From positions 1 through 64,000 of the forward strand of contig NZ_CAJNOB010000012.1 of the NCBI RefSeq assembly GCF_905250085.1: a stretch of 64,000 nucleotides of DNA, read 5' to 3'. A model generated the notes under the pieces. The model saw only the letters and a list, made by a program, of their open reading frames with translations, did no database searches and was not told the origin of the DNA. The stretch comes from Candidatus Methylacidithermus pantelleriae (lineage in GTDB: Bacteria > Verrucomicrobiota > Verrucomicrobiia > Methylacidiphilales > Methylacidiphilaceae). The position numbers and the translations under genes are program-made. This document shows, piece by piece, positions 27,378 to 32,138 of the stretch; positions within the stretch are counted from its first letter, which is position 1, and each line of letters begins with the position of its first letter.

Positions 27378-27394
27378 ATGAGTCTCAGTCTCAT
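27378..27394 (+). promoter_or_regulatory. Fur-box-like palindrome upstream of the flavin redox cluster
   Basis: ATGAGTCTCAGTCTCAT is a 17-bp imperfect palindrome with perfect ATGAG/CTCAT arms. The inner 15 bases agree at 11 positions with TGAGAATGATTCTCA, a common proteobacterial Fur-box form. It starts 31 bases before the ATG of the outer-membrane protein gene, overlapping the likely promoter (TTGCAC at 27372-27377). The assignment to Fur is inference; another dimeric regulator could bind it. Confidence 0.45.
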
Positions 27395-27408
27395 TTAGCG
27401 TGCCCACC

Positions 27409-28326
27409 ATGAAACTCACCCAACGATGCTCTTCTCTCTTTTTGACGGCCGTTCTTTTCGTCGGGACAACCGTGGCAACCTATCCCCACGAAACACCCTT
27501 TGTCTTTACCTACCTAACCGAGCTCCAACCCAAAGGAAGCTGGGAATTCGAACAATGGGTTCTTCCCTTCGTAGGCCAACAAAGCGGCGATTACGCCAAC
27601 ATCTTCTTTCGAGACGAAATCGAGTACGGCATAAGCGACCAGTTCCAGCTCGCCCTCTACGTTAATAGCCGCTACGTAGAAGCCTTTCGTAATCTTCCCA
27701 ACGGGTTCACGGGAGGCCCGGACGTTCCTGCTACCGCTAGCCCGCTGGGCCGCTTCCGGAATTTTGACTTCGATAGCGTAAGCCTCGAAATGATCTACCA
27801 GCTCTTAAATCCCTACAAAGACCCCATAGGTCTGGCTTTGTATTTCGAGCCCCTTTTCGGAACAGATAAAGCCGAAGCCGAACCCAAGCTTCTTCTCCAG
27901 AAAAACTTCTTCAATGACCGGCTCGTCGTCGCATACAACTTCGTCTGGGAGTGGGAATGGGAGAAAGAACTCGAAGGGCCCCCGGGCATTGGGCCTTTTG
28001 AGGAGCACATGGCCAAAGAGATGGCGATGATCCATTTTGTCGGCGTGTCGTATCAATTAGGAAACGGCTGGTGGTTAGGGGTTGAAGGGGAAGAACACAG
28101 CGAATTTGAAGGATTCACTCTCAAGGGCATCGAGCATGCCGCCTTTTTCCTTGGACCTGCGGTCCACTATGGTGCCGAACGCTGGTGGGCGTCCCTCTCG
28201 GTTTTGCCCCAGGTCTTTGCGGTTCCTTTGAACGAGGAACAACGGGAAGTAATGAGTGGAGGCCGGATTTTTGGGAACGAACATGTGGCCGTCCAAGTAG
28301 GACTGCGTGTGGGGATTAGCTGGTAA
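27409..28326 (+). CDS. Predicted outer-membrane beta-barrel protein, possibly DUF6662-like
   Basis: 305 residues. Signal peptide at 1-22 (LTQRCSSLFLTAVLFVGTTVA) followed by ATYPHETPFVFTY. The body alternates polar and aromatic residues in beta-strand fashion (WEFEQWVLPF, FQLALYVNSRYVEA, LVVAYNFVWEWEWEKEL) and ends VGLRVGISW, with a C-terminal aromatic residue as in barrel proteins. Function unknown; the family name is from memory and needs a profile search. First gene of the unit with the FMN-binding protein 90 bases downstream. The position suggests it helps the system reach an extracellular or outer-membrane electron acceptor. GTG at 27400 is a possible alternative start. Confidence 0.75.
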   Translation: MKLTQRCSSLFLTAVLFVGTTVATYPHETPFVFTYLTELQPKGSWEFEQWVLPFVGQQSGDYANIFFRDEIEYGISDQFQLALYVNSRYVEAFRNLPNGFTGGPDVPATASPLGRFRNFDFDSVSLEMIYQLLNPYKDPIGLALYFEPLFGTDKAEAEPKLLLQKNFFNDRLVVAYNFVWEWEWEKELEGPPGIGPFEEHMAKEMAMIHFVGVSYQLGNGWWLGVEGEEHSEFEGFTLKGIEHAAFFLGPAVHYGAERWWASLSVLPQVFAVPLNEEQREVMSGGRIFGNEHVAVQVGLRVGISW

Positions 28327-28416: not shown

Positions 28417-28941
28417 ATGAAATCGTGGATCACTCCCACAGTCACCATCGTTACTTCTGTCATTCCCACGGTAGCCCACTCCACGATCTACCTTTCCGTC
28501 GAGGAAGCCCAGAGAATCCTCTTTCCCCACGCTCAATTCCAACCCCTATCCCTTCATCTGACAGAGGAACAAAAGAAAGCCATTGAGGAGTTTAGCGGGG
28601 CTCCCTTCTCTCCAGGTACGGTCCAGGTCTGGAAGGCTATCCCGGGTGGCTACTTCTTTGTCGATCGTGTGCTCGGCAAGCACCAGTACTTCACGTATGC
28701 TTTGGCTCTGGGACCGAAGGGAGAAATTTTGGGGCTAGAAATTTTAACCTATAGCGAGAGCCACGGAGGCGAAGTTCGCAGACCCGCTTGGAAAACCCAG
28801 TTCCTTGGAAAACGTTTTGCCACACCACCCCAGTGGCAGTTCAACATCACCAATATCACCGGGGCTACTCTCTCCTGCAAACACCTAACCAGCGGAGTTC
28901 GAAGACTCCTTGCCATCTACCACTATGCTCTTGCCCACTGA
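28417..28941 (+). CDS. Exported FMN-binding protein with covalent flavinylation motif
   Basis: 174 residues. N terminus has a signal-like segment (about 4-21) and periplasmic location is inferred. IYLSVEEAQRILFP is the usual start of FMN-binding domains. The domain includes VDRVLGKHQYFTYALALGPKGEILGLEILTYSES and ends NITGATLSC: Thr-Gly-Ala-Thr (148-151) with a Ser two residues later is the [S/T]GATx[S/T] motif where ApbE links FMN to Thr151 by a phosphodiester. The ApbE gene starts inside its last codons. Related domains occur in RnfG, NqrC and stand-alone periplasmic electron carriers; there are no Rnf/Nqr genes here, so this is a stand-alone carrier. Confidence 0.85.
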   Translation: MKSWITPTVTIVTSVIPTVAHSTIYLSVEEAQRILFPHAQFQPLSLHLTEEQKKAIEEFSGAPFSPGTVQVWKAIPGGYFFVDRVLGKHQYFTYALALGPKGEILGLEILTYSESHGGEVRRPAWKTQFLGKRFATPPQWQFNITNITGATLSCKHLTSGVRRLLAIYHYALAH

Positions 28942-29872
28942 AATCTTGCGGCGCTGTCGTCCCGGCTTTGAAACCCTGGTGGAAATCACAGTAACCGGTT
29001 CCTCGCGGGACACCCTCGCCTCGGCCTTGACGGACGCCTTCCGACGAATCCAGCACGTCTACCGGTCAGTTAATTTTTTTGATCCCCAAAGCGAGCTTTC
29101 CCTCCTCCACCGCACAGCCTGGCACAAGCCTGTGCCGGTAAGCCGGCTCTGTTACGCAATTATAGGCCGTGCCCTGCAGCTGGCTCGAACCTTTCCCGGA
29201 TCTTTTGATCCCACGGTGGCTACCAAGGTGACCCCAAGGTCCAGGCTTTTGGCTCTCGGTTTGGAGCGGCCACCAGATCCCGCTGCTAGCTGGAAAGACA
29301 TCCTGCTTCTCCCTCGAAGAAGAATCGTTTTCCTGCGGCCTTTGCTTTTGGATCTCGGGGGTATTGCCAAAGGTTACGCAGTCGACGCAGCGATCCGCTG
29401 CCTGCGCCTTCGCGTCTCCGGAGCCTTGGTAAACGCCGGCGGGGACCTCCGTTGCTTTGGTTCCTGTTGCTGGCCCGTCTTAGTGAGAGATCCTCGCCGC
29501 CCGATACGGCTGGGCTTGGTCCTCCAAGTGTCAAACACCGCTCTTGCAACCTCGGCGTATCCCGCGCGTTGTCGTTATCCGGATCATCACTTATCCAGGG
29601 GTCTCTGGCACCCTGAGACCGAAAAAGCTTACCGTGGAAACGAAAGCGTCACGGTATTGGCTCCCCGATGCTGGATCGCTGATGGATTGACAAAAGTTTT
29701 CCTTCTGGGAAATGCACAAGCACGCGCGCTGGCTTGCCAGTGGCAGGCAAAGGCTCTCTGGATCCAGTCGGGCTCCTTTGGACAACTGCACTGGCGATGG
29801 GAAACTGCTCCCCCTCCCTCCCCACGGCAAAAAGAGCATGCTGCCCCTCTGTGGAGAAGATTTTTTCACTAA
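28925..29872 (+). CDS. apbE: FAD:protein FMN transferase
   Basis: 315 residues. Transfers FMN from FAD to a Thr/Ser of target proteins, here most likely the adjacent FMN-binding protein. Conserved blocks: DPTVATKVTP, LLLDLGGIAKGYAVDAAIR (141-159), LVNAGGDLRCFG and the Mg-binding C-terminal block CWIADGLTKVFLLG. The N terminus reads straight into the fold (CRPGFETLVEI) with no export signal, whereas most bacterial ApbE are lipoproteins or exported. The start at 28925 overlaps the upstream gene by 17 bases; a TTG at 28910 adds five residues but no signal. Either the target is modified before export or the start lies elsewhere. Confidence 0.9.
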   Translation: MLLPTEILRRCRPGFETLVEITVTGSSRDTLASALTDAFRRIQHVYRSVNFFDPQSELSLLHRTAWHKPVPVSRLCYAIIGRALQLARTFPGSFDPTVATKVTPRSRLLALGLERPPDPAASWKDILLLPRRRIVFLRPLLLDLGGIAKGYAVDAAIRCLRLRVSGALVNAGGDLRCFGSCCWPVLVRDPRRPIRLGLVLQVSNTALATSAYPARCRYPDHHLSRGLWHPETEKAYRGNESVTVLAPRCWIADGLTKVFLLGNAQARALACQWQAKALWIQSGSFGQLHWRWETAPPPSPRQKEHAAPLWRRFFH

Positions 29873-29896: not shown

Positions 29897-30430
29897 ATGC
29901 GCCCACAGCCCTTAGCTCCTCTGCGTGACCGTAAGAAAAACCGCCAACCCGCCACTCCCGGGCAGGTTGCCCGTCCTTTTGCGCTCCCCCTTGGGTACAA
30001 ACTCATTCTTTTCCTTACCTTGGCCCTTCTATGGATGTCCGGAATGCTCTGGGTTCTTTTCCAAGACCCCAGGGTCTTTGGCGCCGTGGGCAGACCAGAA
30101 TCAGTCGACGCGGCGCGAAGCATGCTTCTAGCCCTTCACGGTTTAGGAGCTTTCCTTTTTCTGGCGCTTTTGGGGAGTCTCTTTCCACTTCATATCGCCA
30201 AGGCCTGGCGGGCCAAAGAAAACCTTCCCTCCGGAGTCATTCTTTTGGGAAGCGTCCTTCTTCTTGTGTTGACGGGTTACGCCTTGTACTACGCGGGATC
30301 AGAAACCGGGCGAAGGCTTGCAAGCCGTTCCCATATATGGCTAGGGGGGGTTATGCCCCTTCTTTTAGCCTGGCACGCATGGGGCTACCGGCGACGGAAA
30401 AAGCCAAATCCGCAAGCTCCCGAGTCCTAG
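29897..30430 (+). CDS. Four-helix membrane protein with putative bis-His heme sites (DUF4405/cytochrome b-like)
   Basis: 177 residues. Basic N terminus (DRKKNR) and basic C terminus (YRRRKK) place both ends in the cytoplasm; hydrophobic helices lie at about 34-55, 76-102, 113-132 and 145-163. Four histidines fall in helices 2 and 4: H81 and H146 near the periplasmic side, H99 and H160 near the cytoplasmic side. That is the geometry expected for two stacked b-type hemes carrying electrons across the membrane. The short loop YYAGSETGRR follows helix 3. The family name is tentative. It lies 24 bases after apbE and would supply electrons to the flavoprotein or take them from it. Confidence 0.7.
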   Translation: MRPQPLAPLRDRKKNRQPATPGQVARPFALPLGYKLILFLTLALLWMSGMLWVLFQDPRVFGAVGRPESVDAARSMLLALHGLGAFLFLALLGSLFPLHIAKAWRAKENLPSGVILLGSVLLLVLTGYALYYAGSETGRRLASRSHIWLGGVMPLLLAWHAWGYRRRKKPNPQAPES

Positions 30431-30611: not shown

Positions 30612-32138
30612 ATGAAATCCCGAGGAACTCTCCGAAATTCCCTTTGCAGCGTGGGGATCGGAACCACGCTCCTTGTGTTTTCCCTAACCTCGTGGGGTGA
30701 AGTGTCCCCCCCCTCCCAAGAGCCACTGGAACACAGTCTTACCCGACCACCCCAGGGATCCCAAGACGCCCCCGTTCCTCCGGTTCCTTCCGCAGCGTCT
30801 CCTGAACGTGTTCCCCCGGCCCGGCCGGCTCCCAAGAATCTTCCTGAGGTCGAGGAAATTTTGGCCCAGATGGGACCGATTCTGGGAAAACCCAAGGAAC
30901 CTCACGCGCTGGATCTGGAGCGGTGCTTCGAACTCGCCGCGATTCGAAGTGATCAGCTGAAAATTGATGCGCAAACAGTCGCAGCCCAGCAAGCGATCGT
31001 TGCCCAGACTATTGCTACCCTCTTTCCTTCGGTCCAATTTGTGAACCAGCAGAACTTCCGGGACTTTGCTGGATTCGGTTCCTTTATTGGGGGAACGTTC
31101 GTAGGTGGCGGCCGACGATACACTTCCTTTAATGCTTTAACTGGATCACAACTTCTCTTTAACGGTTTGGCAACCCAAAATCAAATTGCGGCCGCTCGAG
31201 CACAGGCTGCGGCCTCCCAGTTTTCCCTCAAACGGGATTACCAGCTTCTTTACGGCAACGTGGCCGCCGCTTTTTATAATGCCCTTTCCTTTGAAGGAGG
31301 TCTTTTCATTTTGGAGGACGAAGCCAAGGCACTCGAAGCGCTCATTGGAGAGCTCGAATATCGCGTCTCCATTGGGCGCTCCCGGCCGGCCGATCTTCTG
31401 CTTTCCAAAACGAATCTAGCAAACGTGCGCGCGCAACAGGAACAAACCCGCGGAGCCCTCTCGCAGCAGCTTCAAGCACTTGCCTTTTATACGGGGATCC
31501 CAAAAGAAAAGCTTCGGCTCAAAGAAACCCACCCCTTTCCCTCCCCAGACGTCCTCGAACGATACCTAGCCCAGGTCGGCGCCCGGCCCGACATTTTAGC
31601 CAGTGTGGAAAACTTGCGGGCGGCCGAACGCACCCTTTCGGCTACGAAAGGTTCCCTTTGGCCCACCGTAACCGCCCAGGGCAATTTCTTTCTGACCCAA
31701 GACCCCCCCTCTCCCGGCCAATGGTTTGTTTCCCTCTCCGCTTCCCTTCCCATCTTTGATGGGGGTCTTATTTCCGCGAGGATCCAGCAGCAACGCGCAG
31801 TGGTCCAGCAGGCGCAACTCCAAATTGAACAACTCCGCCGGACCGCCGACCAACAGGTTCGCACGGCCTTCGATCTACTCAATTCGCAGATCGCCCAGGT
31901 CCTTCGTTTCCAAGAAATGGCAAGAGTAGCTGGGCTTAGCTACGGAGCCCAGCTGGAGGATTACCGGCGAGGGGTGGTGGATCTCCTGACCGTGCTCACG
32001 GCGCTCCAACAGTTTCACGCCGCGCGTTTGCAGCTCCACCAGGCCGAAATGTCGGCTCGCTTTCAACTCATCAACCTTTTTGTCACCGCCGGCTTGACTC
32101 CGGATTCAACCCCGCGCTTCCTTTCGCTTCCGCGCTAA
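30612..32138 (+). CDS. TolC-family outer-membrane channel/efflux protein
   Basis: 508 residues. Signal peptide about 1-29 (ending SWGEV), then a Pro-rich linker (roughly 30-85; PPVPSAASPERVPPARPAP) not usual in TolC. The two repeated OMF modules follow: LDLERCFELAAIRSDQLKIDAQTV..., a long helical hairpin (LKRDYQLLYGNVAAAFYNAL...), then the second half with FVSLSASLPIFDGG and a coiled-coil helix (IQQQRAVVQQAQLQIEQLRRTADQQV). GVVDLLTVLTALQQFHAARLQLHQAE closes it. Forms a trimeric channel with an inner-membrane pump; no pump or adaptor gene is adjacent. Same strand as the flavin cluster but 181 bases downstream, so functional linkage is uncertain. Confidence 0.88.
   Translation: MKSRGTLRNSLCSVGIGTTLLVFSLTSWGEVSPPSQEPLEHSLTRPPQGSQDAPVPPVPSAASPERVPPARPAPKNLPEVEEILAQMGPILGKPKEPHALDLERCFELAAIRSDQLKIDAQTVAAQQAIVAQTIATLFPSVQFVNQQNFRDFAGFGSFIGGTFVGGGRRYTSFNALTGSQLLFNGLATQNQIAAARAQAAASQFSLKRDYQLLYGNVAAAFYNALSFEGGLFILEDEAKALEALIGELEYRVSIGRSRPADLLLSKTNLANVRAQQEQTRGALSQQLQALAFYTGIPKEKLRLKETHPFPSPDVLERYLAQVGARPDILASVENLRAAERTLSATKGSLWPTVTAQGNFFLTQDPPSPGQWFVSLSASLPIFDGGLISARIQQQRAVVQQAQLQIEQLRRTADQQVRTAFDLLNSQIAQVLRFQEMARVAGLSYGAQLEDYRRGVVDLLTVLTALQQFHAARLQLHQAEMSARFQLINLFVTAGLTPDSTPRFLSLPR

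Follow-up and report, generated by a model that had tools for sequence, protein, structure and literature searches.

A predicted four-helix, two-heme cytochrome b encoded with an FMN-binding protein, an ApbE-family flavin transferase and an outer-membrane barrel in Candidatus Methylacidithermus pantelleriae

Introduction

It is already known that transmembrane cytochromes can feed flavinylated carriers. Cytochromes of the DUF4405 family bind heme b, as determined by spectroscopy, and the ferrosome cytochrome FezC is a relative of DUF4405 (according to the available sections of PMC10979944). For PepSY systems, a link to iron and control by Fur are described in the available sections of PMC8238504. 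The motif for FMN attachment reads [S/T]-G-A-[S/T], and cytosolic ApbE proteins are known for cytosolic substrates (available sections of PMC12052999).

Here, we describe a unit of four genes in Candidatus Methylacidithermus pantelleriae, a member of the Verrucomicrobiota. All coordinates refer to the window, which is the whole stretch of DNA analysed (64,000 nucleotides, positions 1 to 64,000 of contig NZ_CAJNOB010000012.1). What is new is a four-helix variant of the membrane cytochrome, which is encoded together with an FMN_bind protein, an ApbE-family protein and an outer-membrane barrel; a literature search, in which the sources were accessible in part, found no published description of this four-gene unit. 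Sequence comparisons and a structural model indicate that the product of the last gene is very probably a two-heme cytochrome b in electron exchange with the FMN protein, an estimate that leaves the acceptor aside.

Results

Four invariant histidines in a small membrane protein

The gene at positions 29897–30430 of the forward strand is predicted to encode a diheme cytochrome b, a four-helix membrane protein, based on the invariance of its histidines, a structural model and the charge pattern. Its translation comprises 177 amino acids with exactly four histidines: His81 (30137–30139) and His146 (30332–30334), the predicted ligands of an outer heme, and His99 (30191–30193) and His160 (30374–30376), the predicted ligands of an inner heme, all encoded on the forward strand. 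The antisense frame of the same interval is interrupted by stops. The true start may be located downstream of 29897, since relatives start around 25 residues later and residues 1–30 are of low confidence in the model.

In an alignment of 60 unique rows, His81 and His99 are found in 60/60, His146 in 59/60 with one gap and His160 in 58/60 with two gaps; the gaps derive from the truncated ORFs of loci L070 and L090. Besides the histidines, Gly49, Gly93, Gly113, Gly127, Trp104, Asn109 and Arg139 are nearly invariant. Tyr131 and Tyr132 are also fixed in these rows, but they belong to the search seed: the seed of the six-sequence alignment used to scan species genomes was the Tyr stretch that closes helix 3, [TS]GY[GA]LYY[AFL]G, and the histidines played no part in it. 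Six distant relatives obtained by a profile search of the phylum all keep the four histidines and the four glycines and have lost the Tyr pair, and the three plasmid proteins reached via ApbE, from Methylocystis, Bradyrhizobium and Sphingomonas, all possess the four histidines with identical spacing. The preliminary description of this gene had proposed that exactly these four histidines form two stacked heme sites, and their conservation showed no exception wherever they could be aligned (60 unique rows, 6/6 distant relatives). Judged from these sequences, the four-histidine pattern is not due to chance.

The spacing of the histidines is unequal, with 18 residues between H81 and H99 and 14 between H146 and H160, which counts against two hemes and would suit a protein with a single heme, whose second histidine pair would have a structural role or belong to a quinone site. 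The two pairs do not differ in invariance, however, and we consider a single heme quite improbable.

NCBIfam gave no match for the cytochrome of the window. In each of the three annotated plasmid units examined, it goes under 'hypothetical protein', although one of them names the adjoining DUF6662, FMN-binding protein and FMN transferase.

Predicted topology and fold

An AlphaFold model computed from 49 sequences (mean pLDDT 87.5, pTM 0.76) contains helices at residues 32–56, 68–105, 110–132 and 136–167, and these limits place H81 and H99 on helix 2 and H146 and H160 on helix 4. The mean net charge of the 49 family sequences is +2.4 at the N-terminus, −1.0 in loop 1–2, +3.5 in loop 2–3, −0.5 in loop 3–4 and +4.1 at the C-terminus. 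From this positive-inside pattern, both termini are predicted to be located inside, H81 and H146 on the outer side and H99 and H160 on the inner side. The same arrangement, with cytoplasmic termini, H81 and H146 at the periplasmic side and H99 and H160 at the cytoplasmic side, had been claimed before, and the charge pattern of the family matches it as a prediction. On a helical wheel, the two histidines of helix 2, which are 18 residues apart, fall on one face (0 degrees), and 40 degrees separate the two of helix 4; the offset from the conserved face amounts to 83 degrees for the histidines of helix 2 and to 26 and 66 degrees for those of helix 4, which is no proof of an inward orientation.

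Rows 1–8 of a VIA-align comparison contain cytochrome b6, cytochrome b (8q1b chain C, taken as such from its title and length), HyaC and designed two-heme 4D2 bundles, with a Z of 11.3 for 4h0l (3.5 Å over 134) and of 10.8 for 7ah0 (3.0 Å over 104). In these rows, the predicted fold appears similar to the two-heme four-helix type. The Z-scores of the top rows range from 10.7 to 11.5, with unrelated non-heme bundles close behind (8tn1, Z 10.7), and a Z below ~13 may mean merely a common arrangement in the case of bundles; the resemblance to two-heme cytochromes in the model is support, short of proof. DUF4405, FoxB and MsrQ structures were absent from the rows listed, and an unlisted family may still be similar. 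A Foldseek search against the PDB gave no match at E ≤ 0.001 (first row: formate dehydrogenase N chain C, E 0.32), and phmmer and profile searches of PDB sequences returned nothing up to E 10.

When the family profile was split in two, its halves could be aligned, pairing H81 with H146, H99 with H160 and G49 with G127 (hhalign probability 53, E 1.4e-4, one comparison), and helices 3–4 match DUF4405 proteins at both histidines (probability 61, E 7.9e-5). The DUF4405 profile was built without L117 and L124, whose ORF was out of the DUF4405 frame or clearly another protein, and without L123, which was used alone. These profile alignments suggest that the cytochrome is a duplicated hairpin. When the family was compared with two PF01292 sets, hhalign gave nothing useful (probabilities 5 and 2), and it found no match to the one-sequence profile of L123. 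This whole-genome locus of the same class encodes a DUF4405-matching protein of 163 amino acids with two H-x13-H hairpins, a candidate small diheme cytochrome.

The protein had initially been presented as a minimal diheme cytochrome b in 177 residues. Histidine conservation, the fold and the FMN_bind and ApbE neighbours support the diheme part of this claim; 'minimal' has precedents in L123 (163 amino acids) and in FezC, modelled as a homodimer with DUF4405-like heme sites. Among single-chain candidates for a diheme membrane cytochrome, the protein is one of the smallest.

A unit of four genes

The cytochrome gene is the last of four genes with the same direction: DUF6662 (27400–28326), FMN_bind (28417–28941), ApbE (28910–29872) and the cytochrome itself. 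The scan of species genomes yielded 52 loci in Verrucomicrobiota, alpha-, beta- and gammaproteobacteria and one Omnitrophota. The cytochrome was the only query for these loci, of which 50 contain FMN_bind, 49 contain ApbE and 35 contain DUF6662 (in L058 as a fragment only). All four genes occur in 34/52 loci and their order is identical in 34/34, with the barrel gene first and the cytochrome gene last. FMN_bind was also found within a short stretch around the cytochrome in five of the six distant loci. Two loci count against a link to FMN: in L086 the cytochrome stands by itself, and neither FMN_bind nor ApbE is present in L058. The preliminary description had further suggested that electrons could cross the membrane to the flavoprotein, and the FMN_bind and ApbE genes that adjoin the cytochrome gene across phyla are consistent with such a path.

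Among the 15 FMN-bearing loci without DUF6662 whose upstream ORFs were listed, 12 have an ORF of 308–529 amino acids with an aromatic final residue. In a scan of eight of these ORFs, two passed the Porin_O_P cut-off and two approached it. More than one DUF6662 gene is present in the units of L052, L055 and L083, and L036 carries FMN_bind and two DUF6662 matches near a NicO-family nickel/cobalt transporter, with no ApbE or cytochrome found alongside. Downstream of the unit in the window lies a TolC-like OEP gene (30612–32138), which was left out of the unit because no match to it was found in related loci. In eight verrucomicrobial loci (L060, L066, L068, L071, L075, L081, L083 and L090), the unit is followed by what we take to be ribosomal protein S2 and elongation factor Ts-like genes, so its position is stable there.

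Among the 60 nearest-relative genomes, the cytochrome gene is present in its own genome only; it is therefore patchy, being absent from the other 59, which include 12 genomes of the same family. A search of 288 genomes of the phylum gave nine at E ≤ 0.01 including its own, of which one other was strong. FMN_bind was found in 22/286 genomes of the class, and the cytochrome was present in 11 of 20 loci taken from this search. Plasmids yielded none when searched with the window cytochrome and two records with a Collimonas relative. In a tree of 49 cytochromes, whose alignment omits L070 and L090 as truncated and L057 and L064 as duplicates, the window row sits on a very long branch without a supported place; seven label changes are needed for Verrucomicrobiota, which is no proof of transfer.

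Flavoprotein, flavin transferase and barrel

The FMN_bind protein (28417–28941, forward strand; PF04205, 31.5 bits against a cut-off of 22) has a predicted Sec-type signal peptide, and Sec-like signal peptides were recognised by eye and hydropathy in its relatives, a few of whose ORFs are over-extended at the start. The acceptor site [S/T]-G-A-[S/T] is present as TGAT, with Thr151 (28867–28869, forward strand) as the predicted FMN attachment residue; this Thr is conserved in 51/51 sequences. Three residues ahead of the first S/T of the motif, the window protein has Thr and not the Asp of the published motif, replacement of which had a minor effect (available sections of PMC12052999).

The ApbE-family flavin transferase (28910–29872, forward strand; PF02424, 124 bits) has no signal peptide and carries non-canonical active-site motifs. 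It thus lacks the feature, an N-terminal signal peptide, that defines periplasmic ApbE lipoproteins. Genome-wide, there is one ApbE match and one FMN_bind match. Of 48 related ApbE proteins examined, the domain start was recognisable in 47; fewer than 20 residues precede the domain in 34/47, and a hydrophobic stretch was seen in 0/13 of the others. The segment H-[IL]-[LIV]-[DN]-P-R-T-G is present in nine of 12 ApbE proteins of more distant clusters. Many ApbE proteins of cytochrome units have S/T-P/A-[LI]-[LIV]-D-P or other letters instead, with the His kept in several (L054, L055, L057, L059, L063 and L088), and D-[AG]-L-x-K is read in the ApbE proteins of these units. The variant positions are presumably the catalytic His and the metal-binding Thr of classical ApbE. 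Such leaderless, non-canonical ApbE proteins occur across L052–L103 and in the window, where this is the sole ApbE of the genome; that ApbE lacks a signal peptide and its presumed substrate has one is counted against the proposed electron path. A programmed frameshift joining the overlapping FMN_bind and ApbE genes was considered and rejected: the frame offset is mostly +1, but +2 in L061 and 0 in L096.

The first gene encodes a DUF6662 outer-membrane beta-barrel with 12 predicted strands, a signal peptide and a C-terminal aromatic residue (27409–28326, forward strand; PF20367, 33.7 bits against a cut-off of 27); the ORF spans 27400–28326 and the ATG is located at 27409. AlphaFold predicts a 12-strand barrel (pLDDT 84.8), whose closest Foldseek matches are FapF (1.4e-7) and a COG4313 channel (1.5e-5). 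The alignment of the family comprises 29 rows, for which ORFs of 260–340 amino acids were kept and L061 was omitted. A literature search found no paper on DUF6662.

A Fur-box-like palindrome upstream of the unit

The palindrome TGAGTCTCAGTCTCA at 27379–27393, 16–30 bases before the first ATG, is a Fur-box-like candidate operator of the unit. The pattern TGAGWCNNNGWCTCA occurs in the genome at this position only, and the site has three mismatches to a loosened Fur 15-mer. With this 15-mer, three mismatches being allowed, Fur-like sites were found upstream of 14/45 units and 3/286 other genes of the same loci (Fisher p 5e-11), a comparison in which the pattern was picked post hoc and the loci are related and not independent. 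The 45 units are those of 53 (44 of the 52 loci and the window) that have upstream DNA and a clear first gene. Shuffling gave a mean of 0.85 of 45 units with a Fur-like site. The TGAGAnnnnnTCTCA-type palindrome precedes the window unit, and looser Fur-like sites lie ahead of proteobacterial units; in L052, L064, L080, L087 and L088, such sites are located upstream of DUF6662. More distant related clusters bring together genes for a FUR-like protein, a porin-like protein, FMN_bind and ApbE, joined by a cytochrome in L041 and L043. FUR-like ORFs are present in L042, L043, L049 and L051, confirmed by Pfam (PF01475) in L043 only, and the genome contains two FUR-family genes.

These sites bear on what the unit does. 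It might be a Fur-regulated periplasmic reductase for ferric iron or other metals that serves metal uptake and uses the barrel as a channel through the outer membrane. The excess of Fur-box-like sites ahead of the units, the FUR gene beside the related cluster of L043 and the two Fur-family genes of the genome favour such a role, as do the PepSY flavinylation clusters, which are Fur-repressed and tied to iron (available sections of PMC8238504). However, the pattern was chosen post hoc in loci that are not independent, the window site, being unique, is no general Fur site in the genome, and the unit has no iron transporter. A similar unit on a plasmid of Methylocystis heyeri (L149) is surrounded by copper oxidase, multicopper oxidase and ferritin-like genes, which also argues against it. 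We regard a metal reductase as quite possible, at somewhat less than an even chance.

The Fur-like sites would also suit a metal permease in which the four histidines bind a metal ion for transport instead of heme. Metal transporters, too, have histidines in membrane helices. Against this stand the arrangement of two histidines on each of two helices with heme-like spacing and conserved glycines, the relation to DUF4405 and cytochrome b561 and the constant FMN_bind and ApbE partner; a permease is the least probable of the explanations considered here.

Discussion

From these observations, we infer an electron path in which both heme sites would be occupied. The four-helix cytochrome b would reside in the inner membrane and hold two hemes, one close to the periplasmic side with H81 and H146 as ligands and one close to the cytoplasmic side with H99 and H160. 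Electrons would flow from the quinol pool to the two hemes and on to the FMN that is covalently bound to the exported FMN_bind protein, which is encoded two genes upstream and would receive its FMN from ApbE. The flavoprotein might then reduce a periplasmic acceptor that arrives through the DUF6662 barrel, for which ferric iron or another metal is our best, albeit tentative, guess.

The same path could equally lead to another acceptor, namely a reductase or repair enzyme of the periplasm or outer membrane whose gene lies outside the unit, as in other FMN_bind systems. Flavinylated carriers serve many acceptors (available sections of PMC8238504), and beyond the barrel no acceptor gene is common to the units. 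The barrel gene, however, comes first in all 34 four-gene units and points to an acceptor with a link to the outer membrane. Such a partner is conceivable and stays somewhat short of probable. A further reading of the two-heme electron path, a compact envelope unit with a duplicated FezC/DUF4405-like hairpin, a flavoprotein and a 12-strand channel that is under Fur-type control, reduces metals and has its FMN attached in the cytoplasm before export by the leaderless ApbE, seems unlikely as a whole.

Because the cytochrome has no family name and is 'hypothetical' in the three plasmid units, annotation gives no sign of the membrane-crossing step in a flavin electron pathway found across Verrucomicrobiota and Pseudomonadota. 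The unit further connects the unstudied barrel family DUF6662 to redox. Cytosolic ApbE proteins have cytosolic substrates (available sections of PMC12052999); the ApbE of the unit is leaderless, yet its presumed substrate is apparently exported, which raises the question in which compartment flavinylation takes place.

Similarities to known cytochromes exist at several levels. The N-terminal four helices of cytochrome b/b6 of the bc1/b6f complexes likewise carry two histidines on each of two helices. In cytochrome b/b6, the heme ligand helices are B and D. These proteins provided the best VIA-align rows, but there is no sequence match, and neither a Rieske protein nor a cytochrome c/f is encoded in the unit. 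Cytochrome b561 has its first two ligands on different helices. Helices 3–4 match the prokaryotic cytochrome b561/hydrogenase cytochrome b family (PF01292) below threshold (23.1 bits against a cut-off of 30.1), and 28/49 members of the cytochrome family match it at E ≤ 0.01.

In the PepSY-like/FoxB and MsrQ-like systems, transmembrane hemes likewise feed a flavinylated extracytosolic protein (available sections of PMC8238504 and PMC10979944). The window protein, however, has no Pfam match to these families, and those systems have DUF2271 substrates and TonB receptors. FezC likewise forms DUF4405-like heme sites from two copies of a unit, but was modelled as a homodimer (available sections of PMC10979944), whereas the cytochrome of the window has two hairpins in one chain.

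The closest likeness is to the DUF4405 cytochromes (PF14358; Huang et al. 2024, PMC10979944, available sections), with which the protein shares four invariant histidines, apbE in the cluster and the match of helices 3–4. Clustering with apbE, a trait of a DUF4405 subset, is seen in 49/52 loci, and 20/49 family members match DUF4405 at E ≤ 0.01. The window cytochrome scores 18.3 bits, below the gathering score of 26.7, and has four transmembrane helices instead of the six described for DUF4405; since score and helix count fail, it was not filed as a member. The DUF4405 system of that source is built from a flavodoxin and a flavin transporter and found in Proteobacteria and Firmicutes, whereas the window unit comprises FMN_bind and an outer-membrane barrel and its family occurs in Verrucomicrobiota and Pseudomonadota. 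By analogy, the cytochrome of the window is predicted to work like the flavinylation-associated DUF4405 cytochromes.
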